From a virus, in the IMG/VR virus record IMGVR_UViG_3300017987_000194, positions 1-37,040 of that record: 37,040 nt of DNA; one strand, given 5' to 3'. This document shows, piece after piece, positions 9,772 to 29,413 of the stretch (position 1 is its first letter; each line of letters begins with the position of its first letter). The position numbers and the translations under genes are program-made. The notes below the pieces were generated by a model. It was given only the letters and a program-made list of their open reading frames with translations, was not told where the DNA came from and did no database searches.

Positions 9772-12123
9772 ATGGCCGATCGCTATTGGGTTAACGACGA
9801 CTCGGACGGCGACTTTTCCAATGCGAACAATTGGTCCGCAACGGATGGGGGCGCGGGCGGTGCGGGCGTTCCCGGGTCCGGGGACACTGCGCGGTTTGAG
9901 TCGACTGTAAACGACGACTGCACGTTGTCCGCAGACGTTACGACGGGACCAAGCTTGCGCATTTTCGGCGGATACTCAGGGACGATCGATCTTAACGACT
10001 ACGCCTTGACGGTACAGAACGTCACGGTAAGCGCTAACTCTTGCACATGGAAAACGGGGACGGGGACGTTTACCATAAACGGGACAATGACGGTCGCATG
10101 GAACGTCGGGACAATGACGAAAGAGGGCGGAAAGCTTGTAATCGCCGGTACAAGTAAATCCGTCGACTTTCTCGACACATACGGAAACATAGAGGTAACT
10201 GGAACGACGATCTATTGTGGGCGAATGGTAGCGGACGATCTCACGATCAAGACAGGCGCGAGCATAGAGATCACGTCGTCAAGCAGCCGATGTAAGGATC
10301 TTTACGTTGAATCGTCCGCGACAATGACGATCACAACAAATACGATGGAGGTCGGCTCCGGAAGGAACTTAAAACAGCAAGACGGGACGATCAATGGGAC
10401 GGGGACTCTCCGCTTTTACAATTGGGGCGGGACGCTTCCTTGGGTGTCGGGGATAACGCAATTCGATGTTGCTATTCAACTTTACTCGTTCAATCAAACC
10501 AAGGATCTTACGCTTGAGTCCGGGACGATTACGTTTGACAAGGGGCTCAAGTTCTTGATCGGGCCGTCCGGCTCGATCACGGTTAACAACGACACAAACG
10601 ATCCGGTTGTATACATTGGCGGAGATTTCGCCCACGATCCCGTTTCGACGGGCGGGACTCTTACTTGGAACAAGGGCGTCGGAAACGTCATATTCAGCGG
10701 CAACGCCGGAACCTTTGCGGTCAATCTGGACGGGCAAGATTTCGAGGATACCCAATTTAACCAAGCGGGCGCAACTTGGCAACTCGCCAACGACGCGGAG
10801 TTTGTGCGGCTTCGCATACTGGCGGGAACCGTCAAGATGGGATCCGGCTCCATTGAAACGGGGGATTTGGATTGTTCCGGCGGGGCGCTCGAAATGGAAA
10901 GCGTTTCGCTCACCGTCAACGGCGGATACCAAGTGGGTTCGCTTTCGTCTCTTGACGCGGGGACAAGTTCCGTCGACCTTGCCGGGACGTCCGAAGCGAT
11001 CTATACGACGGCGGCGACGTGGGACTTTTACGATCTCACCGTCTCGGGGAGTTACGATACGTCCGGCGTCGGGCGGAATCTCAATTGCAAGAACTCGATC
11101 ACCGTAACCGGAACGCTCGATCTCGACAACGTCAATAGCACGTTGATCGCAACGTCAACGCTTGCGTCTTTCACCTTGACCGGCGGGACTGTAACCGGAC
11201 TCGGGACGATTAGTTGGGGGACGGCGAGCGGGACGTTCCCAACGGACGGGACGATCAGTTGTTCGCAAGTTACATGGACTCGCGGGACGACGCTTCCGGC
11301 GAGGACGTTTGACGCGGATTTGATGTTACGCGTCAATCAGATCTCAACCGTTACGTTTGGGGCCGGGACTCTCACGGTAAACGGCGATCTCGCAAATACG
11401 GACAATACTTCGAACCTTGCGGTCACGTATGATTTTGACACAAACGATCCGACTGTCAACGTCTCCGGCGATCTGCTATTCAATACGGCGATCGGAACGC
11501 AAACGGTCGAAGCCGGGGCCGCCGTGTTTAATGTCGAGGGCTCCGTGGACGTGTCGACCGTCTCCACCTACACGGGCGGATCGGAGACGTGGAACCTTGC
11601 GGGCGCGGCGTCCGGGACGCAAACCATCGAGAGCAACGGAAAGAGCCTTGGGGCGTTTGTCGTCAACGATAGCGGAGCAATAAAACAACTCGTCGACGAT
11701 TTGAATTGCGCGAGCTTTCAGCTTGACGACGGGGACTTGGACCTTAACTCCAAGACGCTTACGACGAGCGGGAACTTTGCCGTCAATAGCGCGGCGGACG
11801 TCTCCGATTGGGGAGGCGGGACAATCGACGTCGGCGGGAATTTCGGAGCGAACGGCACGGGGATTGGATCGGAACTTGTTATTGCGGCGGCGACGACGTG
11901 GACTCTTAACGTCACGGGCGGAGCAACGGCGCAATATGTCGACGTTCAAAACTCGGACGCTTCCGGGGGAACGGAAGTAATCGCGGCGGACTCGCTCGAC
12001 TCCGGCGGGAACGTAAATTGGGATTTCGGGACGGAACGGACCGTAACGATTGCGGAAGTTGGGGCGCGGAACGTCCATGCTCCGCGCTTGCGCTTGCAGC
12101 GCAACGGGCGTTTGTACGGCTAA
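9772..12123 (+). CDS. Large beta-repeat fibre/adhesin-like protein (783 aa)
   Basis: Almost the whole protein is made of short Thr/Ser/Gly/Asn/Asp-rich strands separated by turns (for example GTFTINGTMTVAWN, GTLDLDNVNSTLIATST, DLDLNSKTLTTSGNF), as expected of a right-handed beta-helix or beta-solenoid. The N-terminus has an aromatic motif (RYWVNDDSDGDFSNANNWSA, then GGAGGAGVPGSGDTA) seen at the front of many beta-helical surface and phage proteins. There is no signal peptide, so it is not a secreted bacterial adhesin; a tail fibre, head fibre or receptor-binding role fits a phage. The last residues (HAPRLRLQRNGRLYG) are basic. No catalytic motif is evident. Confidence 0.65.
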   Translation: MADRYWVNDDSDGDFSNANNWSATDGGAGGAGVPGSGDTARFESTVNDDCTLSADVTTGPSLRIFGGYSGTIDLNDYALTVQNVTVSANSCTWKTGTGTFTINGTMTVAWNVGTMTKEGGKLVIAGTSKSVDFLDTYGNIEVTGTTIYCGRMVADDLTIKTGASIEITSSSSRCKDLYVESSATMTITTNTMEVGSGRNLKQQDGTINGTGTLRFYNWGGTLPWVSGITQFDVAIQLYSFNQTKDLTLESGTITFDKGLKFLIGPSGSITVNNDTNDPVVYIGGDFAHDPVSTGGTLTWNKGVGNVIFSGNAGTFAVNLDGQDFEDTQFNQAGATWQLANDAEFVRLRILAGTVKMGSGSIETGDLDCSGGALEMESVSLTVNGGYQVGSLSSLDAGTSSVDLAGTSEAIYTTAATWDFYDLTVSGSYDTSGVGRNLNCKNSITVTGTLDLDNVNSTLIATSTLASFTLTGGTVTGLGTISWGTASGTFPTDGTISCSQVTWTRGTTLPARTFDADLMLRVNQISTVTFGAGTLTVNGDLANTDNTSNLAVTYDFDTNDPTVNVSGDLLFNTAIGTQTVEAGAAVFNVEGSVDVSTVSTYTGGSETWNLAGAASGTQTIESNGKSLGAFVVNDSGAIKQLVDDLNCASFQLDDGDLDLNSKTLTTSGNFAVNSAADVSDWGGGTIDVGGNFGANGTGIGSELVIAAATTWTLNVTGGATAQYVDVQNSDASGGTEVIAADSLDSGGNVNWDFGTERTVTIAEVGARNVHAPRLRLQRNGRLYG

Positions 12124-14720: not shown

Positions 14721-17465
14721 ATGCCAGCAAACGCCGTCGCAATGGGAAAGGCTTACGTCGTCGTCGGAGCGCGGACGGGTCCGCTCTTTAAGGCGTTAGG
14801 CAACGCAGAAAAGCGGATCGCAAGGTTCGGCGCGAAAGTCGGACAGATCGCCGGGGGCTTCGCAAAGCTTGGGACGGCGATCGCTCTTCCGTTTGTCGCG
14901 GCGTCTCGGGTCGGCTTGGAATTTGAAAAGCAAATGTCCGAGGTTCGAGCCGTAACCGGAGCGACGGTCGAGGAATTCCAACGGCTCGAAAAGACGGCGC
15001 GAGATTTGGGGGCGTCGACTTCCTTTACAGCAAGCGAAGTAGGTTCGGCAATGGCGCAACTCGGCCGCGCAGGTTTTGAGGCGAACGAGATCATTGCCGC
15101 AATCCCGACGACGCTTGCTCTTGCCCGGGCGTCCGGGTTGGGGATGGGGGAAGTCGCGGAGATCGTGGCGGACGTGGGGCGAGCTTTCGAGGTAAGCGCG
15201 GGAGAGATTGTCACCGTTGCGGACGCGATAACCTTTACGGCAAACAATGCGACAACTAACATCTCTCAAATGGGGGAGGCGTTAAAGTTCGTCGGCGCGT
15301 CCGCCAACGCCGCCGGACAGAACTTGACGACGATCACCGGGGCTCTTGGTATCCTCGCAAACCAAGCGATCAAGGGAAGCCAAGCGGGGACGTCTCTAAA
15401 TACGATCCTTGTCAAGCTCGCGGAGGTTAAGGTTCAAGATCGGTTGGCGGATCTCAAGGTGGAAATCAAAGACGCGTCCGGCGAAATGCGGGACATGACG
15501 GGGATCCTTGGGGACCTTGGAAAGCGTCTCGAAAACGTCGGACAAGTCGAGCGGTTGGGGATCCTCTTTGAGTTGTTTGGAAAGCGCGGACTCGCGGCGG
15601 CGCAGATTCTTACGAAAATGAACGCGGAATGGAGCGAGTTTACGCAACGGACGAAAGCCGCGACGGGCGTTACGCAAACGACCGCCGACATTATGGAGGG
15701 CCGGTTCAATAAAGCGCTCAACCAAGCCAAGAGCGCGTTCGAGGGATTGCTAATCACGATCTCGAAGCAAGTACAACCTACGTTTACGGCTTGGCTAAAG
15801 ACGCTCACGGACACGTTTAACCAGATCGCGATTTTCACAAAGGAAAATAAGGATCTTGTGATTACGCTTGCGGAAGTCGGGGCCGCAGCGATCGCCCTTG
15901 CGGGCGCGTTTGGAACGCTTGCGGTTGCCGCCAAGTCCGCTTCGTTTGCGATTGGGCTTGCGTCCGGCTTGGGAGGGGCGGTCGCGGCAACCGGAACCGG
16001 GCTCGCGGCTCTTGGTACAATAGCGAAAGCGACGGCGTTTACGTTTGCGGCAAGCGTCGCGCCGTCCGTAGGATCTGCGGCGTTGGCTTTCCAGGGGCTT
16101 TCCATATCTACGCTTGCGGCGTCGTCCGGGTTGCTCAAGCTAAAGGCGCTCGTCGCCGTTGGCATAATCGCGCCGTTCGCAGCGGCGGCGACAATCATTG
16201 GTTCCGTCGTCGCGATAACGTGGAAGCTTTGGAACCTTTGGAGCGACAATAAAGCGATAATAAAGGTCCAAAACGACATTGACAAACTCAACATAATCAT
16301 GCGGGAGCAAAAAGACGCGCTCGACGATCTCGACAAGCTCGACGAAATCTTGGGGAACAAGCTCGACGCCGAGGGCGCGGTTGCGGACGTTGACGCGAGG
16401 ATCCAAAGGCTAAAGGATCTCGGCAAGACCGAGAAGGAAGTAACCGATCAACTCTTAAAGGATCGTGAGATTCTTGCCCGTCAGTCTTCCGCCGACTTGC
16501 AGGGAAGCGCGTTGGGTGGGAATCAGCGAGACGAAATGCAACGCCGCTCCAAGTTGTTACTCGGGGCGACGCAACTTGCGCTTGACGAAAACAAAGCCGC
16601 GACGATCAAGAGCGAAAAGGAGAAAGCCAAGGAAATTCTTGATATTCGCTTGGACCTTATCGAGAGGCTAAAGAAACTCCAAAGCGACTTCGAGGGCAAG
16701 GTTCGGGATCGCGGCGCGGCGGAAGCGTCGGCGGCGGACGCCGAGGCGTTCAAGAAACGTCTTGGGATTGATCCGGAACAAGTCGCGAAGGACCTTGACC
16801 AAGTGATCGCACGGGGCCGCGTAAACCTCGCAAGACTGAAAGCGGAAGCGGACGACGCGTTCGCGCAAGCCGGGGAAGCCGCGACGCGGGACAATGTCCG
16901 GGCGGCGCAGGAGGCGGTCGCTGCCTACAATATGGAAGCGAAGGGGCTTGACGTCTTGGCGGCGCGGCGTCGCCAAGCGGCGCAAGCGTTGACGGCGATC
17001 GCGCAGGAAGAAAAGGATCGGGCAACCAAGACGATCGGAGAGGCGGTCGCCCTACAGCAAAAGATCATCGACTCCGGCAACGTGAACCCATTTATCGAAG
17101 GGGCGACGTCGCAGTTTGACGGCTTAACCGAGGCGGCGAAAGACGCGTTGACGGGAATCCTCGAAGAGATCCAACGCTTGCGGGAAGCTTTCGCGGACGG
17201 ACTCATTGACGAGGCGACGTTTCGGCGGGATCTCGCCGGACTGCGCGAGCAAGCGGACGACGCGTTCGCAGCGCGGCGCGGCGGAGCCGGGGGCGCAGGG
17301 ACAACGCGCCGCGAGACGGGGACCTTTGGGACGTTCTCCGCGAGAGAGGCGGCGGGGAGTCTCGGACCGGCAACGCTCGCCGTCGCAAAGGAACAACTCG
17401 GAGCGCTCCGCGAATTGGTCCGCCTTGGTAAGAAGAACTCAGGAACGGCGGCGTATACAGGATAA
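14721..17465 (+). CDS. Tail tape measure protein (914 aa)
   Basis: Sets tail length and travels with DNA into the host. Residues about 60-290 match the TP901-type tape measure domain: MSEVRAVTGATVEEFQRLEK, DLGASTSFTASEVGSAMAQL, GRAGFEANEI, ISQMGEALKFVGASANAAGQ and GSQAGTSLNTIL. A hydrophobic, Ala/Gly-rich central region (about 385-510) contains probable membrane-penetrating segments (EVGAAAIALAGAFGTLAVAA and others), followed by long coiled coils to about residue 830 and a Gly/Ala-rich tail. The usual estimate of 1.5 angstrom per residue suggests a tail of roughly 135 nm. No lytic transglycosylase or peptidase motif is apparent in it. Confidence 0.92.
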   Translation: MPANAVAMGKAYVVVGARTGPLFKALGNAEKRIARFGAKVGQIAGGFAKLGTAIALPFVAASRVGLEFEKQMSEVRAVTGATVEEFQRLEKTARDLGASTSFTASEVGSAMAQLGRAGFEANEIIAAIPTTLALARASGLGMGEVAEIVADVGRAFEVSAGEIVTVADAITFTANNATTNISQMGEALKFVGASANAAGQNLTTITGALGILANQAIKGSQAGTSLNTILVKLAEVKVQDRLADLKVEIKDASGEMRDMTGILGDLGKRLENVGQVERLGILFELFGKRGLAAAQILTKMNAEWSEFTQRTKAATGVTQTTADIMEGRFNKALNQAKSAFEGLLITISKQVQPTFTAWLKTLTDTFNQIAIFTKENKDLVITLAEVGAAAIALAGAFGTLAVAAKSASFAIGLASGLGGAVAATGTGLAALGTIAKATAFTFAASVAPSVGSAALAFQGLSISTLAASSGLLKLKALVAVGIIAPFAAAATIIGSVVAITWKLWNLWSDNKAIIKVQNDIDKLNIIMREQKDALDDLDKLDEILGNKLDAEGAVADVDARIQRLKDLGKTEKEVTDQLLKDREILARQSSADLQGSALGGNQRDEMQRRSKLLLGATQLALDENKAATIKSEKEKAKEILDIRLDLIERLKKLQSDFEGKVRDRGAAEASAADAEAFKKRLGIDPEQVAKDLDQVIARGRVNLARLKAEADDAFAQAGEAATRDNVRAAQEAVAAYNMEAKGLDVLAARRRQAAQALTAIAQEEKDRATKTIGEAVALQQKIIDSGNVNPFIEGATSQFDGLTEAAKDALTGILEEIQRLREAFADGLIDEATFRRDLAGLREQADDAFAARRGGAGGAGTTRRETGTFGTFSAREAAGSLGPATLAVAKEQLGALRELVRLGKKNSGTAAYTG

Positions 17466-19275: not shown

Positions 19276-19962
19276 ATGACGCACATGCGGAAACACGCCG
19301 TCAACGGACACTTGACGAAACAGAAAACGGTTGCGGACAAACCGCTTGTCAAGTGTCCTCTTCCCTGCGACTATCCAACTTTGTATCTCACCGTTTCGGG
19401 AGCCGTTACCAAGAACGTTTATTGGTGCGGCTTTAGCTGGAGTCTCCCGACGGATAGCGGCTTGCGAGTCGAGGCTTGCCCTTGGAATTGGCAAGCCGGT
19501 TGGACGTATGTTGATTACTCGCCGTCCCCATTTGCTCCGCCGTCTTACATTGTACGGAGGAAGATCGGCGGGACTGAGTTTTGGATTATGTCGAACCACT
19601 ATACGATCCCGTATGCCAATTGGAAACGGTCGCTAACTCTTTTTCGGAACGTCTTGGATACGCGGATTTACTTTACATGGGGGACAATCTACGTCGTCCA
19701 CTACCATTTAAACGAACTCAATATTCAACCCGTAAGCGGCACGATCGGACAACCAAAAAGAGACAAGAAGGTTTGGCTTGCTTATTCGACTGTCACTCCC
19801 TACAGCTCGCTAAACTTGATCCTCGGAGTAGCGGAGCCGGTTGTCAATCCTACAACTCAGAGTTACACGTTCGACACGACAACGCCGAGCGCGTTCTACA
19901 ATCAGAAAACGATCAACGGTATCACGTACAAATGGGAAAAGGGGAACGGATGGCCACATTGA
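19276..19962 (+). CDS. Tail-region protein with Cys-rich N-terminus (228 aa)
   Basis: Not recognised. The first third holds several Cys (KCPLPCDYP, YWCGFSW, EACPWNW) and aromatic residues; the rest is beta-rich and Tyr/Trp-rich (TEFWIMSNHYTIPYANWKRS, YFTWGTIYVVHYHLNELN). High Tyr/Trp/Asn/Ser content is typical of carbohydrate-binding or receptor-binding domains at the tail tip. Its end overlaps the start of the first sulfotransferase gene by 13 nt, linking tail and glycan-modification genes in one transcript. Confidence 0.5.
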   Translation: MTHMRKHAVNGHLTKQKTVADKPLVKCPLPCDYPTLYLTVSGAVTKNVYWCGFSWSLPTDSGLRVEACPWNWQAGWTYVDYSPSPFAPPSYIVRRKIGGTEFWIMSNHYTIPYANWKRSLTLFRNVLDTRIYFTWGTIYVVHYHLNELNIQPVSGTIGQPKRDKKVWLAYSTVTPYSSLNLILGVAEPVVNPTTQSYTFDTTTPSAFYNQKTINGITYKWEKGNGWPH

Positions 19963-21182
19963 TCAGCGGTTGCCCGCGTTCGGGAACTAGCCTAATGATG
20001 CGGATCCTTATGGAGACGTTCGGAGAGGATCGGATCATTGGCTCCGGATTCCCAATGGAGGAAGCGCAAGAGGACGACGGACAAGCGGAAGAGGGGGAAG
20101 CTCCCGGCGTCGCGTCTCTCCGGAAGTATGCGAAAGCCCGTCGGCTCCGGCGGGGCCGCACGGAAAAGAAAAGAGAGAAAGCGCGGGACATGAACCCCGG
20201 CGGGTTCTTCGAGTCGACAAATTACGCCGTCAAGGGGATCTCTTTCCGATTGGATTTGCGGGACGAATTGCGGCGCATGATTGCGGGATCGAATCCGGGC
20301 GTTTTCGTCAAGGTGGTTTCCCAAGGACTACAGAACACGAACCCGCTCTACGTCGACCGCGTGATCTATATGGTGCGAGATCCCCGCGCCGTCGCCAAGA
20401 GCCAAGAGCGCTTGACGGTTCCGGGCTTCAACGATCAAGGCGGGCCGGTAGTCGACGGCGTCGAGCAAACGATCCATTCCGCGCAGATGTTTAACCGCGT
20501 TTCAATGGGCGCGGCGGCTTGGTTTTTGGCGTTCCCCGTCCCTGTCCACTTTGTCGAATACGACGACTTGATCGCGGAGCCCGCCGCAACCCTTGAGCGC
20601 TTGCGACTCTTTTTGCTTGAGGGGGACTTTGCGAAAGCCGTTGGCGTAATCGATCCGGAGCTCCGCCGGAGCATCCCGGAAGAGGACAGAACCGGCGAAG
20701 AGTGGGACCTAGCGGACGCGCTATACGCAAAGCTCCGCGCCGGTGATTGGCAAGGGCTCCGAGACGCCGCCCGCGCCCACTTCGATCGGAAGCGTAAGGA
20801 GTCGTTCGCAAACGCGTTCTATTGCTTCCGCATGAACGCGAAAATGTCGCGGACGGAGTGCGAGTTGTGTTATTCCCATCCCGACACGGCTTCGAACTTC
20901 TGTATGTCGGCGGAGACAATCCGCGTCGATTGGCGGAAAGAACCTTGCGCTTATGAATGTTTGACGCAAGGAAAGACGGTAGAGGAAAGCATTGCGGGGA
21001 CGCATTGGACCGGACCGCCGCGCCCTTGCAAGTTCCGGGGCGACGTCTCGGACGGATTCGCGGTTGCGCGGCGTCCGTGTTTGGGCGCAAGGGTCGACTG
21101 TCTTTGTCCGGACAATCTCGCGGACTTCGTAACGGCGAGCGTTTGCGGCAAGGGACGTTGCAAGTTCTACGCGGTAGACTAA
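19950..21182 (+). CDS. Sulfotransferase with Cys-rich C-terminal extension (410 aa)
   Basis: Transfers sulfate from PAPS to an acceptor, usually a sugar hydroxyl. The 5'-phosphosulfate-binding loop SGCPRSGTS lies at residues 6-14 and the 3'-phosphate-binding segment VIYMVRDPRAVAKS at about 138-150; FVEYDDLIAEPAATLERL is typical of the domain's C-terminal part. A long insertion (about residues 35-75, EEAQEDDGQAEEGEAPG then basic) separates loop and core. From about residue 290 to the end lies a region with about 14 Cys (TECELC, PCAYEC, VDCLC, CGKGRC), not part of known sulfotransferases and possibly a metal-binding or disulfide domain. The start at ATG 19950 has AAAAGGGG ahead. Confidence 0.85.
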   Translation: MATLISGCPRSGTSLMMRILMETFGEDRIIGSGFPMEEAQEDDGQAEEGEAPGVASLRKYAKARRLRRGRTEKKREKARDMNPGGFFESTNYAVKGISFRLDLRDELRRMIAGSNPGVFVKVVSQGLQNTNPLYVDRVIYMVRDPRAVAKSQERLTVPGFNDQGGPVVDGVEQTIHSAQMFNRVSMGAAAWFLAFPVPVHFVEYDDLIAEPAATLERLRLFLLEGDFAKAVGVIDPELRRSIPEEDRTGEEWDLADALYAKLRAGDWQGLRDAARAHFDRKRKESFANAFYCFRMNAKMSRTECELCYSHPDTASNFCMSAETIRVDWRKEPCAYECLTQGKTVEESIAGTHWTGPPRPCKFRGDVSDGFAVARRPCLGARVDCLCPDNLADFVTASVCGKGRCKFYAVD

Positions 21183-21201
21183 CAAGACGGGTTCTCGGAA
21201 A

Positions 21202-21909
21202 ATGAATTGGCTTATTGTCTCCCAAATGCGGAGCGGGTCGACGTTCCTTGGGGAAGCTTTGCAAGCGCAGGGGTTCCCCTATTATAATGAGTTGTTCACT
21301 CCGGAGATTTGCCGCCGCTCGAATATCCTCCCCCGGGACCTTGACGACAACATAAGCGCGTTTGTCTTGGATCAAGTTTGGTCGCAAGAGCGGGCGGGCT
21401 TTAAGATGATATACGGGCAGGCTACGCCGGACGTATGGGCGCGGCTTGTTCTTGCGCGGTTCGTAAAGGTAATCCACCTTGTCCGGGACGACGTCTTGGA
21501 GCAATATTCGTCCGTTCAATACTTGGAGCGCGTCGGAGTTAGCGCGAGAGTCGACGGCGTATGTCTTGGGACGGATGGGAAGGAAGCGACGCCGGACCTT
21601 GGCTTTCGGATGCGGGTCGATCCGGATCACTTCCGGGATTGGTTGGAGCGGAACCGCTATTGGCGGGAGTTTGTTTGGCGCTCTTTCCGAGACGGTCACG
21701 ACTACCAAGAGATCCCCTTTCCCGAAGTCTTTACGGAACCCGCCGTCAAGCGCGTTTGCTTCCGATTGAATCCAAACCACAAACACAAGCGCGGCGCAAT
21801 GCCAGGACACAAAGAGACGCCGCGACCGCGAGCGCGGGATATGATTACGAACATGGAGGAATTGCGGCGCGAGTTTCGGGGGACGGATTGGGAAAGGGTC
21901 TTGGAATGA
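21202..21909 (+). CDS. Second sulfotransferase, Stf0-like (235 aa)
   Basis: A shorter, different sulfotransferase. The PAPS loop SQMRSGSTF is at residues 7-15, and the 3'-phosphate segment VIHLVRDDVLEQYSS is near 91-105, where Arg and Ser are the expected binding residues. The gap between the motifs, the YNELF motif after the first helix and the LERNRYWREF helix resemble Stf0-type and related bacterial sugar sulfotransferases (Stf0 acts on trehalose in mycobacteria). The C-terminus lacks the Cys-rich region of its neighbour, so the two enzymes are not recent duplicates. Its stop overlaps the start of the next gene (ATGA). Confidence 0.8.
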   Translation: MNWLIVSQMRSGSTFLGEALQAQGFPYYNELFTPEICRRSNILPRDLDDNISAFVLDQVWSQERAGFKMIYGQATPDVWARLVLARFVKVIHLVRDDVLEQYSSVQYLERVGVSARVDGVCLGTDGKEATPDLGFRMRVDPDHFRDWLERNRYWREFVWRSFRDGHDYQEIPFPEVFTEPAVKRVCFRLNPNHKHKRGAMPGHKETPRPRARDMITNMEELRREFRGTDWERVLE

Positions 21910-24491
21910 ATCGGACGCAGTTTGTATCGATCGAGATCGGGACGGGTTGTAATCTCGGGAAAGAACATACGAAATGCCCAAACATGGATCCGGCGCGTTG
22001 GGCAAACGTCGACACGTCCCGCGCCTTGACAGACGAAAAGATCCTTGACGTCGTCCGGGAAATGTACTCGCGACACGGGTTCACCGGGGCGATCGCTTGG
22101 CATTACTACAACGAACCCCTCTTGTATCGGGATCGGATGCTCTCCCTTATGGAGCGGATCAAGGCGGAGATCCCCGCGTCCCGCTTTGCCCTATGGACGA
22201 ACGGCGAACTCATCGAGGCGAATTGCGATTGGATAAAGGCGTTCGAGTACGTATGGATCACGGACTACCGGGGGCAGGGATTCCGACACGTCAAGCGCCG
22301 CGTTCGGAAAACCAAGGTTATGCGTTGGGGACTCGACGGGCGGAAAGAGCCGCAGGGGGAAGAGAGCTTGGGGGCTTGCGGGCGTATGTACTCCGAGTTT
22401 GTGATCGACCATTTCGGGAACGTCCATATCTGTTGCATTGATTGGGCGCGGAACGTCGACCTTGGCAACGTATGGGATCGATCGCTTGCGGCGATTGTCG
22501 AGCAATGGCAGAAGATCCGCGCCTTGGTAAGCGGGCCGGAAATGGACAAAGAAGCTCCGGAGTTTTGCCGCCGTTGCACTTGCCGCCACGCTCACGTTGC
22601 GAGCTTGATCCCGTCGATTGCGCAGGGGGGGAGAGACAAGCGCGATCGCCGCGTCGCAAGGCGCAGGGAGAGGACCGCTCCGCCGTCCAAGTTGCTCGCC
22701 GTCGCCGGGATCCGTAGAGAGGGAACGAACGATCGCGCTTGGCTCGACTATCACGAAAGGATCGCGGACAAGGTCTATCTCGAAAACGATTGGATGCAAG
22801 CGGCGCGGCGGTTGAAAAAGTCCGGCGCAATGTTTGTCGCCGTAATGACGACGGCGCAACGTCTCCAAGGGGACGTCCGGGAAGCGCTCGAACGTCACCC
22901 AAACGAAAACATTTTGACTGTAAAGGGATGCGGGCTCGACAACGAACCGCGCACGGGGATCACGATCGGCAAGCTATCGGAGATCGCGAAGTGGGCCGGA
23001 CCGCGTCCCGTACTCGGGAGCCGCTTTCGCAAGAAAGCGATCGCCCTTGAGGAATTGATCGTCCTAAGCGAAGCGCTCCCGTCCCGGCGGCGCGTCGCTG
23101 TAACCTTTACGCATTACCGGATCCCGGAACAACGGCTTGCCGACCATTTCCAATGGAACGACGAACTATACCGGAAGCACGGGGCGCGGGTCTTTGTTGT
23201 TACGGATCGCCAATATGACGTCCCGGCGTATGCGCGTTGCCTCGTCTATCCCGAGGAAATGCCAACGTTCGCGCTCTCGAAAACGAGCAACTACGGGATC
23301 CGGTACGCTATCGACTGCGGCTTTTCCGTCATAATCAAGACCGATTCGGATATGGTTTATCCGGCGGAGTCCTTTGCGGAAATGGTAGCGACCGAAGAGG
23401 GGGAGGCGGTGATCCCCGTTTATCGTATGGCGAGCAACTATACGGAGCGGGAGACAAAATACGTCGCCGCCCCCAAAGCAACCGGAACGATCGCAATGGT
23501 TGGCGCGGATTGGAAGCGGGCGAGATTTCATGAAAGTTGCAGGGGTTACGGTTGCGACGACGGGATCTTGAGAAAGGACATTGCGCGAGCCGGGATCCTG
23601 GAAAGGCGCTCAAACGTGATCTACCATATCGCCCACGTTCCCGATACGCCGCAACAGGAGTTTAACAAGGTAACGCCAAGGGTCGATCATTGGAATCGGG
23701 ATACGGGGTTTAACCCCGAGAATTTCGCGGGGAACCGGACGTTCCACCGCAAGCGGGACAAGGTCGACGCTTGGGGGCTCCCGGGGATCTCCGCGCTTGC
23801 GATCGTGGCGACGCATTACAGAATGCCGCTTGCCCGTTTGGATCAATGGATCGAGTGGAACGGAAAGCTCTTCGAGGAATACGGAGCCCGGGCGATCATC
23901 GTCTCCGACGTCGAGCGCTCCGGCTTGCCGGATTGGTTGCGGGTTGCGGTATATCCGGTAGAACTCGAAATGTTCTCCCTTTCCAAAACGAGCAACTACG
24001 GGATCCGGTTGGCGGGCGGCGGGATCGTTGCCAAGACCGATCCGGACTGCGCGTTTTCTCGGGAAGCGCTCGACGCTTGCTTGACTGTAACGGAGACGGT
24101 CGGGATCTGTCCGCGCTATTACATGGCGCATAGTTACGAGGCCCGGGAGCAAGCCGCGTACACTTGGGACGCAAGCAAGGGGACGCTCGTTCTCCATTGG
24201 GATCACTGGAACGCGATCGGGGGATACGACGAGCGGTGCGAGGGATACGGGATCGAAGATGGGGACGCTTACGAAAGAGCGCGACGCGTCGAGGGCCGCG
24301 ACGTGCGACGTCTCAAGATTCCCTTCTGGCATATCGCGCACAGTAAAGAAAAGCAAACCCGGGGGAATACGCGGAAGGACTGTTGGAACCGTCAAGCCGG
24401 ATTCAATCCCCGCAACCATAAAGCCAACGTCCGATCCATGCGCGACGACTATTGGGATCGCGAGTCGTGGGGGATCCCTTCCGTCGAGTAA
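21906..24491 (+). CDS. Radical-SAM/SPASM-like domain fused to two tandem glycosyltransferase domains (861 aa)
   Basis: Three parts are visible. (1) Residues 1 to about 235 look like a radical-SAM/SPASM protein: IEIGTGCNLGKEH at the start, WHYYNEPLL (about 65-73, like the GxEP SAM-contacting motif), and a SPASM-like tail with Cys158, a CC pair near 176, LGNVW and CRRCTC near 221. The canonical CX3CX2C is absent; only Cys15 and Cys24 are there (CX8C). (2) About 236-395 is an unassigned linker domain. (3) About 396-630 and 631-861 are two copies of a GT-A-like glycosyltransferase, each with THYR-P, FxLSKTSNYGIR and a D-x-D (KTDSD near 479, KTDPD near 711); the second ends with GGYDERCEGYGIEDGD. 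Start at 21906 is coupled to the previous stop. Confidence 0.75.
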   Translation: MNRTQFVSIEIGTGCNLGKEHTKCPNMDPARWANVDTSRALTDEKILDVVREMYSRHGFTGAIAWHYYNEPLLYRDRMLSLMERIKAEIPASRFALWTNGELIEANCDWIKAFEYVWITDYRGQGFRHVKRRVRKTKVMRWGLDGRKEPQGEESLGACGRMYSEFVIDHFGNVHICCIDWARNVDLGNVWDRSLAAIVEQWQKIRALVSGPEMDKEAPEFCRRCTCRHAHVASLIPSIAQGGRDKRDRRVARRRERTAPPSKLLAVAGIRREGTNDRAWLDYHERIADKVYLENDWMQAARRLKKSGAMFVAVMTTAQRLQGDVREALERHPNENILTVKGCGLDNEPRTGITIGKLSEIAKWAGPRPVLGSRFRKKAIALEELIVLSEALPSRRRVAVTFTHYRIPEQRLADHFQWNDELYRKHGARVFVVTDRQYDVPAYARCLVYPEEMPTFALSKTSNYGIRYAIDCGFSVIIKTDSDMVYPAESFAEMVATEEGEAVIPVYRMASNYTERETKYVAAPKATGTIAMVGADWKRARFHESCRGYGCDDGILRKDIARAGILERRSNVIYHIAHVPDTPQQEFNKVTPRVDHWNRDTGFNPENFAGNRTFHRKRDKVDAWGLPGISALAIVATHYRMPLARLDQWIEWNGKLFEEYGARAIIVSDVERSGLPDWLRVAVYPVELEMFSLSKTSNYGIRLAGGGIVAKTDPDCAFSREALDACLTVTETVGICPRYYMAHSYEAREQAAYTWDASKGTLVLHWDHWNAIGGYDERCEGYGIEDGDAYERARRVEGRDVRRLKIPFWHIAHSKEKQTRGNTRKDCWNRQAGFNPRNHKANVRSMRDDYWDRESWGIPSVE

Positions 24492-24881: not shown

Positions 24882-24939
24882 TAACTACATGGAAAGCAAC
24901 GGAACAACTCGGACGGGTCATAACGGAAGGGGATTGGAA

Positions 24940-25134
24940 ATGGTAACGATCGAGACGGTCAAGGAAGCGGTGCGGCGGCAAGAGACGACAACCATTATTG
25001 ACGCGGTACGGTTGATCGGCGGCGGAGACGTGGATCAGAACTTGCGGATAGCTCGCGCCGCCGCGATCGACGTCTTGGCGGAACGCAAGGGCGACGCGTT
25101 CGCGGATTACATTATGGACTTGATCGGATTGTAA
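24940..25134 (+). CDS. Hypothetical small helical protein (64 aa)
   Basis: First gene of the second transcription block. I chose the ATG at 24940 because a ribosome-binding sequence CGGAAGGGGATTGGAA, repeated before the next two genes, sits directly upstream; an in-frame ATG at 24889 lies too near the predicted transcription start. The product is helical (ETVKEAVRRQETTTIIDAVR, LRIARAAAIDVLAE) with no Cys or membrane segment. No family is recognised. A GC hairpin terminator follows the stop. Confidence 0.6.
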   Translation: MVTIETVKEAVRRQETTTIIDAVRLIGGGDVDQNLRIARAAAIDVLAERKGDAFADYIMDLIGL

Positions 25135-25141
25135 GGCTTTC

Positions 25142-25175
25142 GCCCCCGGGGACGTCTCCCCGGGGGCTTTCTTTT
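25142..25175 (+). terminator. Intrinsic terminator/attenuator hairpin 1
   Basis: GCCCCCGGGGA at 25142-25152 pairs perfectly with TCCCCGGGGGC at 25157-25167 around CGTC, followed by TTTCTTTT. It is one of three near-identical hairpins that separate consecutive small genes, so full termination here would silence the following genes unless antitermination or internal promoters exist. Confidence 0.75.
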
Positions 25176-25202
25176 GACGGTCGATACGGAAGGGGATTGG
25201 AA

Positions 25203-25454
25203 ATGGATAAGGACAAGGAACGGGAAGCGGCGAGAGAGCGCAAGTCGGGGCAAGCGACGCGGGCTTGCAAGGGTTTGCAGCGGCTCCAAGACGGGCTCGA
25301 CTCCTGCTACGATCGGATCGGATCGTCGCGTCCCTTTATGATGGACGCCGACGAGATCGTTTTGGTTGAGAGCTACGCGGCGGACGTGCATAAGATCGCT
25401 CGCTTTCTTGCGACGCTCGACAAAACCAAGACGCCGATCGCGTCGGAAGCGTAA
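25203..25454 (+). CDS. Hypothetical small helical protein (83 aa)
   Basis: Starts at the ATG in the repeated leader (GGAAGGGGATTGGAAATG). The N-terminus is highly charged (MDKDKEREAARERKSGQATR) and the rest helical (ACKGLQRLQDGLDSCYDRIG, EIVLVESYAADVHKIARFLA), with two Cys and no obvious metal site. No family is recognised. It stands between two hairpins, so it may be expressed as a unit with its own leader. Confidence 0.6.
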   Translation: MDKDKEREAARERKSGQATRACKGLQRLQDGLDSCYDRIGSSRPFMMDADEIVLVESYAADVHKIARFLATLDKTKTPIASEA

Positions 25455-25461
25455 GGCGACT

Positions 25462-25497
25462 CCGCCCCCGGGGAGATCCCCGGGGGCGGCTTTCATT
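25462..25497 (+). terminator. Intrinsic terminator/attenuator hairpin 2
   Basis: CCGCCCCCGGGG at 25462-25473 pairs perfectly with CCCCGGGGGCGG at 25478-25489 around AGAT. The T-tract is weaker than in hairpin 1 (TTTCATT after a C). The stem is nearly identical to hairpin 1, and the same leader sequence follows. Confidence 0.65.
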
Positions 25498-25524
25498 GAC
25501 GGTCGATACGGAAGGGGATTTGGA

Positions 25525-25845
25525 ATGGATAAGGTATTGGAAGCCAAGGGGTCGGACACTTGCGCGGGTTGTGTCCATAATTGGCGCGACTATTATTGCG
25601 AGCTATGGAACGACGGTATTTCCTGTGACTCGAAAGCTTGCCGCCCGAAAGCTCGCGCCGTTATGGAGCGCGATCTTGCGGAGCGTCGGGTTTGGTGGAT
25701 CATACAATCCGCCGCACAGGAAGGAAGAGGGGAAGCGGAAGCGCTTGACAATCTTCGGACGTGGAGAGACGCGAACCCTTGGGCGCAGATTGCGGCGGAT
25801 AAGCTCCGCGAGATTGTTGGCGCAACTTTCGCCCCGCAGAAATAG
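25525..25845 (+). CDS. Small Cys-rich putative zinc-binding protein (106 aa)
   Basis: Begins MDKVLEAKG at the ATG of the second full leader repeat (sharing MDK with the preceding gene product). Residues 13-41 hold five Cys: CAGC, a Cys in YYCELW, and SCDSKAC, which suits one zinc site. The remainder is helical (VMERDLAERRVWWIIQSAAQ, DKLREIVG). No family is recognised. It is the third small gene in the hairpin-separated series and ends just before the third hairpin. Confidence 0.6.
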   Translation: MDKVLEAKGSDTCAGCVHNWRDYYCELWNDGISCDSKACRPKARAVMERDLAERRVWWIIQSAAQEGRGEAEALDNLRTWRDANPWAQIAADKLREIVGATFAPQK

Positions 25846-25851
25846 GGCTCC

Positions 25852-25882
25852 GCCCCCGGGGATCTCCTCCGGGGGCTCTCTT
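25852..25882 (+). terminator. Hairpin 3 of the series, weak terminator
   Basis: GCCCCCGG at 25852-25859 pairs with CCGGGGGC at 25869-25876, and GGA/TCC can extend it partly around the ATCTC loop region. TCTCTT follows. It is the third of the series and the leader behind it differs from the other two (TCGAAAGGTCGAGGC before the ATG). Confidence 0.5.
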
Positions 25883-25896
25883 CGAAAGGTCGAGGC

Positions 25897-28501: not shown

Positions 28502-28523
28502 GGGGCAAACGAAACTCTTTTGA
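28215..28523 (+). CDS. Winged-helix-like DNA-binding protein ending in QTKLF (102 aa)
   Basis: The core reads like a helix-turn-helix of winged type: TQEGTLLALLRQYPEGLTDS, QIAERMGLAKSQASARRNGI (recognition helix), followed by a short wing region (VGTITDPKTKKTVNLWAIV). It resembles small phage replication or recombination accessory proteins. The last residues, GQTKLF, match the sliding-clamp-binding consensus and echo the QTSLF end of the protein encoded before SSB. It starts within the preceding frame, so expression may depend on coupling. Function is inferred from motif and neighbours. Confidence 0.65.
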   Translation: MVERTSIDAYRLAKEQRKTQEGTLLALLRQYPEGLTDSQIAERMGLAKSQASARRNGIKDKLASGGGLEALAKVGTITDPKTKKTVNLWAIVRRSEGQTKLF

Positions 28524-28534
28524 TTGTAGGTCAT

Positions 28535-28561
28535 GGGGATCCCGGCGGCGGTGGGATCCCC
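28535..28561 (+). other. Perfect 9-bp hairpin ahead of the replication gene
   Basis: GGGGATCCC at 28535-28543 pairs perfectly with GGGATCCCC at 28553-28561. There is no T-tract. It ends 18 nt before the start of the initiator gene, so it could affect its translation or stabilise the mRNA. Confidence 0.45.
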
Positions 28562-28579
28562 CGAGTGAAGGGAAAGAGC

Positions 28580-29413
28580 ATGGAAAAACAGGACTTGCCA
28601 TACTTGCCACTATGGATCAACGATCTAATGAGCGACAGAAAAGCGATCTGTATGACGGCGGAAGAGTTCGGATCGTATATGTTGCTTCTGATTTCGCAAT
28701 GGAAAGACGGTCCGATCGATCCGGAGGACATGGACGGGATCGGGCGGTGCAAGGTAACGCGTCGCGTCCGGCGTTGCTTTCCGAAGGGAGTAAACGCAAA
28801 GCTCGAACGGGTCCGGGCGGAAGCTTTGGCCGTGATCGAGGGCCGAAAGGACAGGGCAAGAGCGGCGGCGGGGGCGCGGTGGGGGAATGCGGAAGCAATG
28901 CCGGAGCAATGCCCGGGCAATGCTCAAGCATTGCGCAAGCAAAGCGGAAGCAATGCCGGGGCAATGCTTGGCGATGCCATACCAAGAACAAGACCAAGAC
29001 CAAGAACAAAAGATCTTACTCCGAAAGCCCAAAACAATACGGGTTCCAAGGGGAAAAGCGGCAAGCCGACCAAGGCGCAACGGACAAAGGGGATCAAATT
29101 GGCCGGGACGTTTTGGGATATTGGTACTCTTTACAAGATATTTTCTTGGGCAGGATTAGAGAAGCCGGAGGATCTGTTTTGGCTTGCATGGAATTGCAAG
29201 GGAGCAACCGGAGCAAGCGAGCATGGGTTTTCCGTAGTAACGACAAAGCTTATGGAGTTGAAAGCGTCGGAAAAGAAAGGACAGAAGATCGACAACCCGG
29301 GCGGCGCTTGCGTTGTCGCGTTGCGCGATAGCGGACAGAAGGTAAACGACAAACTATACACTTCCGTTTGTAAGGTAATCACAGAAGCCAAGAAAACGAA
29401 GGGATCCAAATGA
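28580..29413 (+). CDS. DUF1376-type replication initiator-like protein with embedded origin (277 aa)
   Basis: The N-terminus fits DUF1376 (YdaU-like) proteins, which sit at the position of lambda O: LPYLPLWINDLMSDRKAICM, MTAEEFGSYMLLLISQWKDG, PIDPEDMDGIGRCKVTRRVR, then a helix ending in RARAAAGARWGNAEA. The central part (residues about 102-135) is an 11-residue repeat (NAEAMPEQCPG, NAQALRKQSGS, NAGAMLGD) that is the readout of an 11-bp DNA iteron array. After a Lys/Thr/Arg-rich linker a C-terminal domain follows (GTFWDIGTLYKIFSWAGLEK). Expected job: bind its own gene's iterons and load host helicase. Confidence 0.8.
   Translation: MEKQDLPYLPLWINDLMSDRKAICMTAEEFGSYMLLLISQWKDGPIDPEDMDGIGRCKVTRRVRRCFPKGVNAKLERVRAEALAVIEGRKDRARAAAGARWGNAEAMPEQCPGNAQALRKQSGSNAGAMLGDAIPRTRPRPRTKDLTPKAQNNTGSKGKSGKPTKAQRTKGIKLAGTFWDIGTLYKIFSWAGLEKPEDLFWLAWNCKGATGASEHGFSVVTTKLMELKASEKKGQKIDNPGGACVVALRDSGQKVNDKLYTSVCKVITEAKKTKGSK
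28884..28977 (+). repeat. 11-bp iteron array, predicted replication origin
   Basis: The heptamer GCAATGC or a close variant recurs at an 11-bp period: GGAATGC 28884, GCAATGC 28895, 28906, 28917, the inverse GCATTGC 28928, GCAAAGC 28939, GCAATGC 28950 and 28961, GCGATGC 28971. Eleven bp is about one helical turn, so all sites face the same side of the DNA. Three units make 33 bp, or 11 codons. The array lies inside the initiator gene, as lambda's origin lies in gene O. Confidence 0.75.
28978..29045 (+). other. A-rich region next to the iterons, possible unwinding element
   Basis: Directly after the iterons comes a purine-rich, A-rich strand (AAGAACAAGACCAAGACCAA and similar up to about 29040). 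It is clearly richer in A/T than the surroundings and shows strand asymmetry. In lambda an AT-rich unwinding element sits at the same place next to the iterons. It also encodes the basic linker of the initiator. Confidence 0.5.

Follow-up and report, generated by a model that had tools for sequence, protein, structure and literature searches.

A phage gene fusing a radical-SAM-fold domain with an invariant histidine to tandem glycosyltransferases, next to a predicted sulfotransferase: a candidate cassette for virion decoration

What do three coupled genes behind the tail genes of an uncultured phage build, and on which molecule? The window, 37,040 bases long, is the entire IMG/VR virus record of this phage; terminase, portal, major head protein and tape measure (14721-17465) were recognised in it. 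Downstream of the tape measure lies a tail-region ORF (19276-19962, plus strand, as are all features given below) without a Pfam or PHROG match. It overlaps by 13 nt the gene directly following it, gene A (19950-21182, 410 aa). A gap of 19 nt separates gene A from gene B (21202-21909, 235 aa), which in turn overlaps gene C (21906-24491, 861 aa) by 4 nt. Coordinates, order and all three junctions were verified, confirming the tight coupling of three genes, the first overlapping a tail-region ORF, that an earlier note on this DNA had described. GC content and third-position GC of the three genes are near those of most other phage genes in the window, so that composition gives no sign of a recent foreign insert.

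The earlier note had further proposed two dissimilar sulfotransferases with visible PAPS loops, SGCPRSGTS in gene A and SQMRSGSTF in gene B. Both loops are in frame and N-terminal. Gene A matched Sulfotransfer_3 (PF13469; 9.8e-12, 46 bits, cut-off 27) and Sulfotransfer_1 (PF00685; 22.3 bits, cut-off 22) above the cut-offs and is clearly predicted to be a PAPS-type sulfotransferase. Inspection of the translation placed the 5'-phosphosulfate-binding loop GCPRSGTS at 19968-19991 and the 3'-phosphate-binding motif MVRDPRAVAKS at 20370-20402, the latter inside the best Sulfotransfer_3 stretch (residues 137-221). The C-terminal third of the protein is rich in cysteine, with 12 residues between positions 292 and 404.

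For gene B, the proposal stood as likely only. Besides the N-terminal loop, the sequence VIHLVRDD..S is visible, but the scores were below every family threshold (Stf0, 13.6 bits against a cut-off of 22, E 0.047; Sulfotransfer_3, 13.1 bits against 27), so that the assignment rests on motifs. A genome search with Stf0 (PF09037) was negative for gene B, this model matching nowhere in that search, and no PDB match was obtained by sequence; the single-sequence AF2 prediction had a pLDDT of 36. Gene B is thus a probable, not a certain, sulfotransferase of the Stf0/NodH-like type. Searches of 50,697 phage records and of the viral contigs gave no relatives of gene A or gene B.

Gene C encodes a BtrN-like SPASM/twitch radical-SAM-fold domain (residues 1-235; 21906-22610), a middle segment (residues 236-392; 22611-23081) and two glycosyltransferase domains of the GT7C/GT-A type (residues 393-628, 23082-23789, DxD at 480-482; residues 627-861, 23784-24488, DxD at 712-714). 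The first transferase domain was assigned by alignment, profile and fold, the second by alignment and by the match of gene C to Glyco_transf_7C (PF02709; 1.1e-5, 25.4 bits, cut-off 23). Both retain the DxD, GYGxD and HxAH motifs in the alignment, and the match to the beta-1,4-GalT1 profile, weak at 4.4e-4, spans the metal and catalytic motifs. The two copies are 36% identical to each other; together with the predicted structure, this alignment verified the tandem glycosyltransferase claimed in the earlier note. In the AF2 model of gene C, calculated from a 12-row alignment, the N-terminal domain and the first transferase domain were confident, the second partly so and the middle segment poor. 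The sole relative found for the latter is the matching segment of a related contig, G001 (37% identity over 67 aa). The top Foldseek matches of the model were the chondroitin polymerase K4CP (6.6e-11) and BtrN (4m7t; 7.9e-10).

The N-terminal domain had been called radical-SAM-like, which holds for the fold and not for the cysteine motif. Gene C matched SPASM (PF13186) with 6.3e-9 (36.4 bits, cut-off 21.5), and the domain aligned with the BtrN profile over almost its full length (2.4e-12). Its model superimposed on BtrN with TM scores of 0.65 (4m7t, by target length) and 0.71 (4m7s), as predicted for a partial TIM-barrel radical-SAM fold. At 21948-21980, the family alignment revealed an altered motif, CNLGKEHTKCP, corresponding to C-x5-H-x2-C-P (C15, H21, C24, P25).

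The first relatives displayed CNL-x3-H-x2/3-CP. A pattern scan was then performed on WHYYNEP and a second on the SPASM half, neither of which included the altered cluster motif. The second scan yielded 25 loci, 14 of them new, and all 14 proved to be family members. Two loci from the first scan, L010 and L018, lacked a WHYYNEP ORF and were dropped, and the near-identical copies L002, L003, L006, L007, L021 and L050 were excluded. The final set comprises 23 distinct domains on 23 distinct uncultured phage contigs, with a mean pairwise identity of 38% and a maximum of 63%; we refer to them as the SPASM-His family.

No tblastn match to this family occurred among the 50,697 phage records, and isolate-based work would therefore overlook it. 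A scan of bacterial and archaeal genomes with two peptide patterns gave a single match, on a Chloroflexi MAG contig that seems to encode the same proteins as phage contig L004, and a cellular origin of the domain was rejected for the genomes scanned. A profile search of 400 Chloroflexi genomes returned, besides the MAG contig, short SPASM-half matches only, and one plasmid match turned out to be a canonical BtrN-like protein. Within the collections and patterns used, namely two peptide patterns for cellular genomes and a profile for one phylum, the family appears to be restricted to phages.

The canonical CX3CX2C motif was absent from all 23 domains, and gene C gave no Pfam Radical_SAM match even at E 1. 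The spacing is C-x5-H-x2-C in 20 domains, C-x5-H-x3-C in two and C-x3-H-x2-C in one (L045), which has the canonical spacing with the middle cysteine changed to histidine. The motif loop contains no further conserved cysteine in any of the 23 domains. This cysteine-to-histidine change, which the earlier note does not mention, is the most unusual feature of the locus, and the SPASM family itself, restricted to phages in the collections used and invariant in this histidine, is the strongest new result of this study. In PqqE, a histidine-for-cysteine change has been engineered, there at the auxiliary cluster (PMC9012708); the open-access literature searched contained no natural histidine at a radical-SAM cluster, which does not prove that there is none.

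With the canonical motif lost, the domain could have ceased to perform radical chemistry. It might then be a radical-SAM relative that has lost catalysis and persists as a scaffold with iron-sulfur or zinc, binding or positioning the acceptor for the glycosyltransferases. The missing CX3CX2C, the missing Radical_SAM match and the frequent direct fusion of the domain to transferase domains all agree with such a role. However, C15, H21, C24 and P25, the glutamate of the NEP motif (E70) and the auxiliary-cluster cysteines C158, C176, C177, C221 and C224 are invariant in all 23 domains, and such invariance of C15, H21, C24, E70 and the auxiliary cysteines at 38% mean identity is unexpected for a dead site. 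In addition, the YNEP motif is shared by a canonical BtrN-like protein of Sodalis praecaptivus, and L045 keeps the canonical spacing as CX3HX2C. We consider a dead scaffold rather doubtful; it would concern the chemistry of one domain only and is compatible with the decoration of virions discussed below. H21 would instead probably be a ligand, giving a first cluster held by two cysteines and one histidine.

We then compared the gene neighbourhoods of the family. At all 23 loci, either a glycosyltransferase or one recurrent partner domain is fused to the SPASM-His domain or located nearby, usually within a terminase-portal-capsid or tail module. A recognised glycosyltransferase, counted as such if recognised by Pfam or alignable to that of gene C, is fused or within a few genes at 17 of the 23 loci (the window, G001, L004, L005, L008, L011, L012, L014, L020, L043, L044, L047, L048, L049, L051, L053 and L054). 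The other six (L022, L045, L046, L052, L055 and L056) have the partner domain, which is fused at either end or adjacent and is also present in L004 and L011. This domain matched no Pfam or PDB profile where tested, and we do not call it a glycosyltransferase. A wider glycosyltransferase search brought up no loci beyond those already in the set.

Sulfotransferases occur on six of the 23 contigs (the window, L008, L051, L053, L054 and the L005 contig), a lower bound since many contigs are fragments. In L051, the sulfotransferase gene lies immediately 3' of the SPASM-glycosyltransferase fusion with overlapping reading frames, and in L054 it is located between the glycosyltransferase and the portal. 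The L008 enzyme matched PF17784 (7.1e-38) and had no tblastn match among the 50,697 phage records. That of the L005 contig (PF13469, 3.5e-14) is encoded away from the SPASM-His domain and overlaps the 3' end of a fibre gene with a YadA head; a gene with similar repeats follows. Since tblastn with one query has a lower sensitivity than the models applied to the contigs, the contrast between contigs and phage records is only suggestive. As to the earlier expectation that the three-gene set would be found in other phages, the exact trio did not turn up in our searches, whereas the combination of SPASM-His domain, glycosyltransferase and sulfotransferase recurs.

The position of the family within these genomes bears on the likely acceptor. 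Terminase and portal flank the domain in L011, L012, L014, L022, L053 (terminase assigned by position) and L054. In L049 it neighbours the portal, in L004 it is located between the portal and capsid genes, and in L045 a capsid-family gene follows it; the window, G001 and L008 have it behind their tail genes. The preference for virion proteins as acceptor rests mainly on this placement in virion modules, along with the fibre-gene overlap in L005. In a hydropathy scan, none of the products of genes A, B and C displayed a likely membrane segment, which fits an acceptor in the cytoplasm. One candidate in the window is a repetitive, Ser/Thr-rich (23%) fibre-like protein (9772-12123), identified by composition; it had no Pfam or PHROG match and shares 26% identity with one of the proteins encoded on phage contig G002.

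A different target would be the host surface: late in infection, the cassette might alter a capsule or a lipid-linked glycan there, so as to prevent superinfection or release progeny from receptors. Surface-polysaccharide loci commonly carry glycosyltransferase and sulfotransferase genes, which counts for this explanation. So does the presence in L008 and L053 of genes typical of surface sugars: NeuB and a NeuA-like cytidylyltransferase are encoded there, along with GT29 sialyltransferase-like and RraA-like proteins, next to the SPASM-His and sulfotransferase genes. On the other hand, the three proteins have no likely membrane segment, and the relatives sit within terminase, portal, capsid and tail operons, not at a separate moron site. 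Nor was a flippase or an initiating transferase for a lipid carrier seen among the named genes in the subset of ORFs tested. We regard a host-surface role as unlikely. The glycans may be sialic-acid-like in some of these phages. A NeuB query gave just two matches in the 50,697 phage records, and no nonulosonate genes were recognised in the subset of window ORFs scanned.

The same fusion of SPASM domain, middle segment and two glycosyltransferases occurs in G001 (contig 3300035670_000404), the nearest relative in architecture, at the same site after the tail genes. The two gene C proteins are 41% identical over their full length, while the terminases are only 27% identical and the neighbouring genes differ; this is expected if gene C belongs to an exchangeable decoration module. 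The other cassette genes of G001 encode a canonical radical-SAM/SPASM protein, a GT29-like protein and, with a score below cut-off, a pyruvyl-transferase-like protein; no sulfotransferase match was obtained with PF13469 or PF17784. Between the two phages, the core is retained and the decorating enzymes are swapped, and sulfation is therefore optional.

We also considered that the enzymes modify phage DNA, forming hypermodified bases that evade restriction. Nucleotide modification based on sulfotransferases and glycosyltransferases has been reported in phages, according to work cited in PMC10829341, and the window also encodes DNA methyltransferases. The transferase domains of gene C, however, belong to the beta-1,4-GalT/chondroitin-polymerase type, and the searches brought up no DNA-glucosyltransferase; moreover, the genes are located in virion modules, and the family is also found beside sialyltransferase-like and NeuB/NeuA genes. 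A role in DNA modification seems very improbable.

Taken together, we lean, with some reservation, towards a late-expressed cassette for virion decoration, whose cytoplasmic enzymes would put a modified, often sulfated glycan on virion proteins. The genes would be expressed late, together with the virion proteins. The glycosyltransferase pair of gene C would assemble a short or repeating glycan in the cytoplasm; its acceptor would be one of the structural proteins of the phage, a tail or fibre protein being the most plausible. Gene A, probably along with gene B, would then transfer sulfate from host PAPS onto the glycan. Before or during transfer, the SPASM domain might act as a BtrN-like oxidoreductase-type enzyme altering a sugar or an acceptor side chain, its first iron-sulfur cluster probably being held by two cysteines and one histidine. 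The fuller proposal, that a phage-restricted radical-SAM-fold family with a catalytic Cys2His cluster builds unusual sulfated virion glycans together with glycosyltransferases and sulfotransferases, is put forward tentatively. The sulfated-glycan pathway suggested in the earlier note is strengthened by the recurrence with sulfotransferases on five other contigs and by the placement in head and tail modules, with gene B not established; judged from sequence, it is plausible and unproved. The open-access literature searched contained nothing on sulfated glycans of phages, which does not prove their absence.

Virion glycosylation by phages is already known. A sulfating version with a radical-SAM-fold enzyme would, if true, widen the chemistry of phage particles, and the nonulosonate genes of the relatives would extend it further, with a bearing on adsorption, evasion and the recognition between phage and host. 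The invariant cysteine-to-histidine change raises the question of whether a radical-SAM cluster has acquired a histidine ligand or the fold has been put to a new use.

With respect to known systems, the claim that sulfotransferases are uncommon in phages holds in that they are uncommon but not unknown: genes of PF13469, the Pfam family of gene A, occur in marine OM43 and Synechococcus phages, where the passages cited give them no function and describe no linkage to a SPASM-glycosyltransferase gene (PMC10580990). For the jumbo phage XacN1, glycosyltransferases were proposed to decorate phage proteins and yield glycoproteins (PMC5852040); compared with this type of virion glycosylation, sulfotransferases and a SPASM-His enzyme are present here as well, and NeuB/NeuA in relatives. 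Gene C resembles the E. coli K4 chondroitin polymerase (2z86) in its tandem GT-A architecture, a similarity of fold only, and beta-1,4-galactosyltransferase 1 in the GT7C signature, the DxD and the His metal motif; unlike either, it is fused to a SPASM domain and phage-borne. HcgA, the radical-SAM protein of FeGP-cofactor synthesis, has the spacing variant CX5CX2C (PMC3087415) and shares with the phage family the five residues after the first cysteine; however, it retains all three cysteines and resembles BioB, and the phage family has histidine at the second ligand position. The nearest relative of solved structure is BtrN, the twitch radical-SAM dehydrogenase of butirosin synthesis (4m7s/4m7t), which the phage family resembles in full-length profile, fold and auxiliary cysteines. 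YNEP or YGEP and (T/S)NG motifs are common to the phage family, BtrN and the Sodalis protein; the latter aligned with the N-terminal domain of gene C (hhalign, 7e-19) and is encoded beside a glycosyltransferase and a 2-deoxy-scyllo-inosose synthase. The Sodalis protein retains a canonical CNRRCTYCP and BtrN a CX3CX2C motif (C16/C20/C23; PMC9012708), whereas C-x5-H-x2/3-C takes its place in the phage family, which is joined to glycosyltransferases by fusion or linkage in phage genomes.

Among the uncultured phage loci with relatives of the SPASM-His domain (the N-terminal part of gene C), a domain with an AMLHxD motif recurs, its copies sharing 31-68% pairwise identity. Copies were located at L004:11439-12266, L011:947-1711 and L045:6899-7861, in the N-terminal parts of the L046, L052, L055 and L056 proteins, and in the C-terminal part of the L022 protein. 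Relative to the SPASM-His domain, it is either fused at one or the other end or encoded close by. Comparison of the tested copies with Pfam and PDB profiles yielded no match.

Nonulosonate-type gene sets (NeuB, NeuA-like, GT29-like and RraA-like) together with a sulfotransferase gene adjoin the SPASM-His gene at L008:6062-14391 and L053:1709-8694, and are positioned behind tail genes or immediately ahead of the portal gene. At L030:7612-10412, a fibre gene with YadA-head repeats overlaps at its end with a sulfotransferase gene; this pair is followed by a second fibre-like gene and further glycosyltransferase-like genes.

In the window, the C-terminal region of the sulfotransferase encoded by gene A (20823-21179) is rich in cysteine (12 residues within approximately 115 amino acids) and was without a family match. 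Between short genes 3' of the cassette (24916-25890), leader-like segments of 28-72 nt are repeated, and strong GC-rich hairpins followed by a T-run occur at 25142-25167 and 25462-25489. An 11-nt tandem unit is present in six copies at 28886-28967, within the ORF at 28520-29413. Finally, close to the glycan genes of phage locus L044, an ORF (685-1560) resembles, by eye, a caspase-like (metacaspase) protein.
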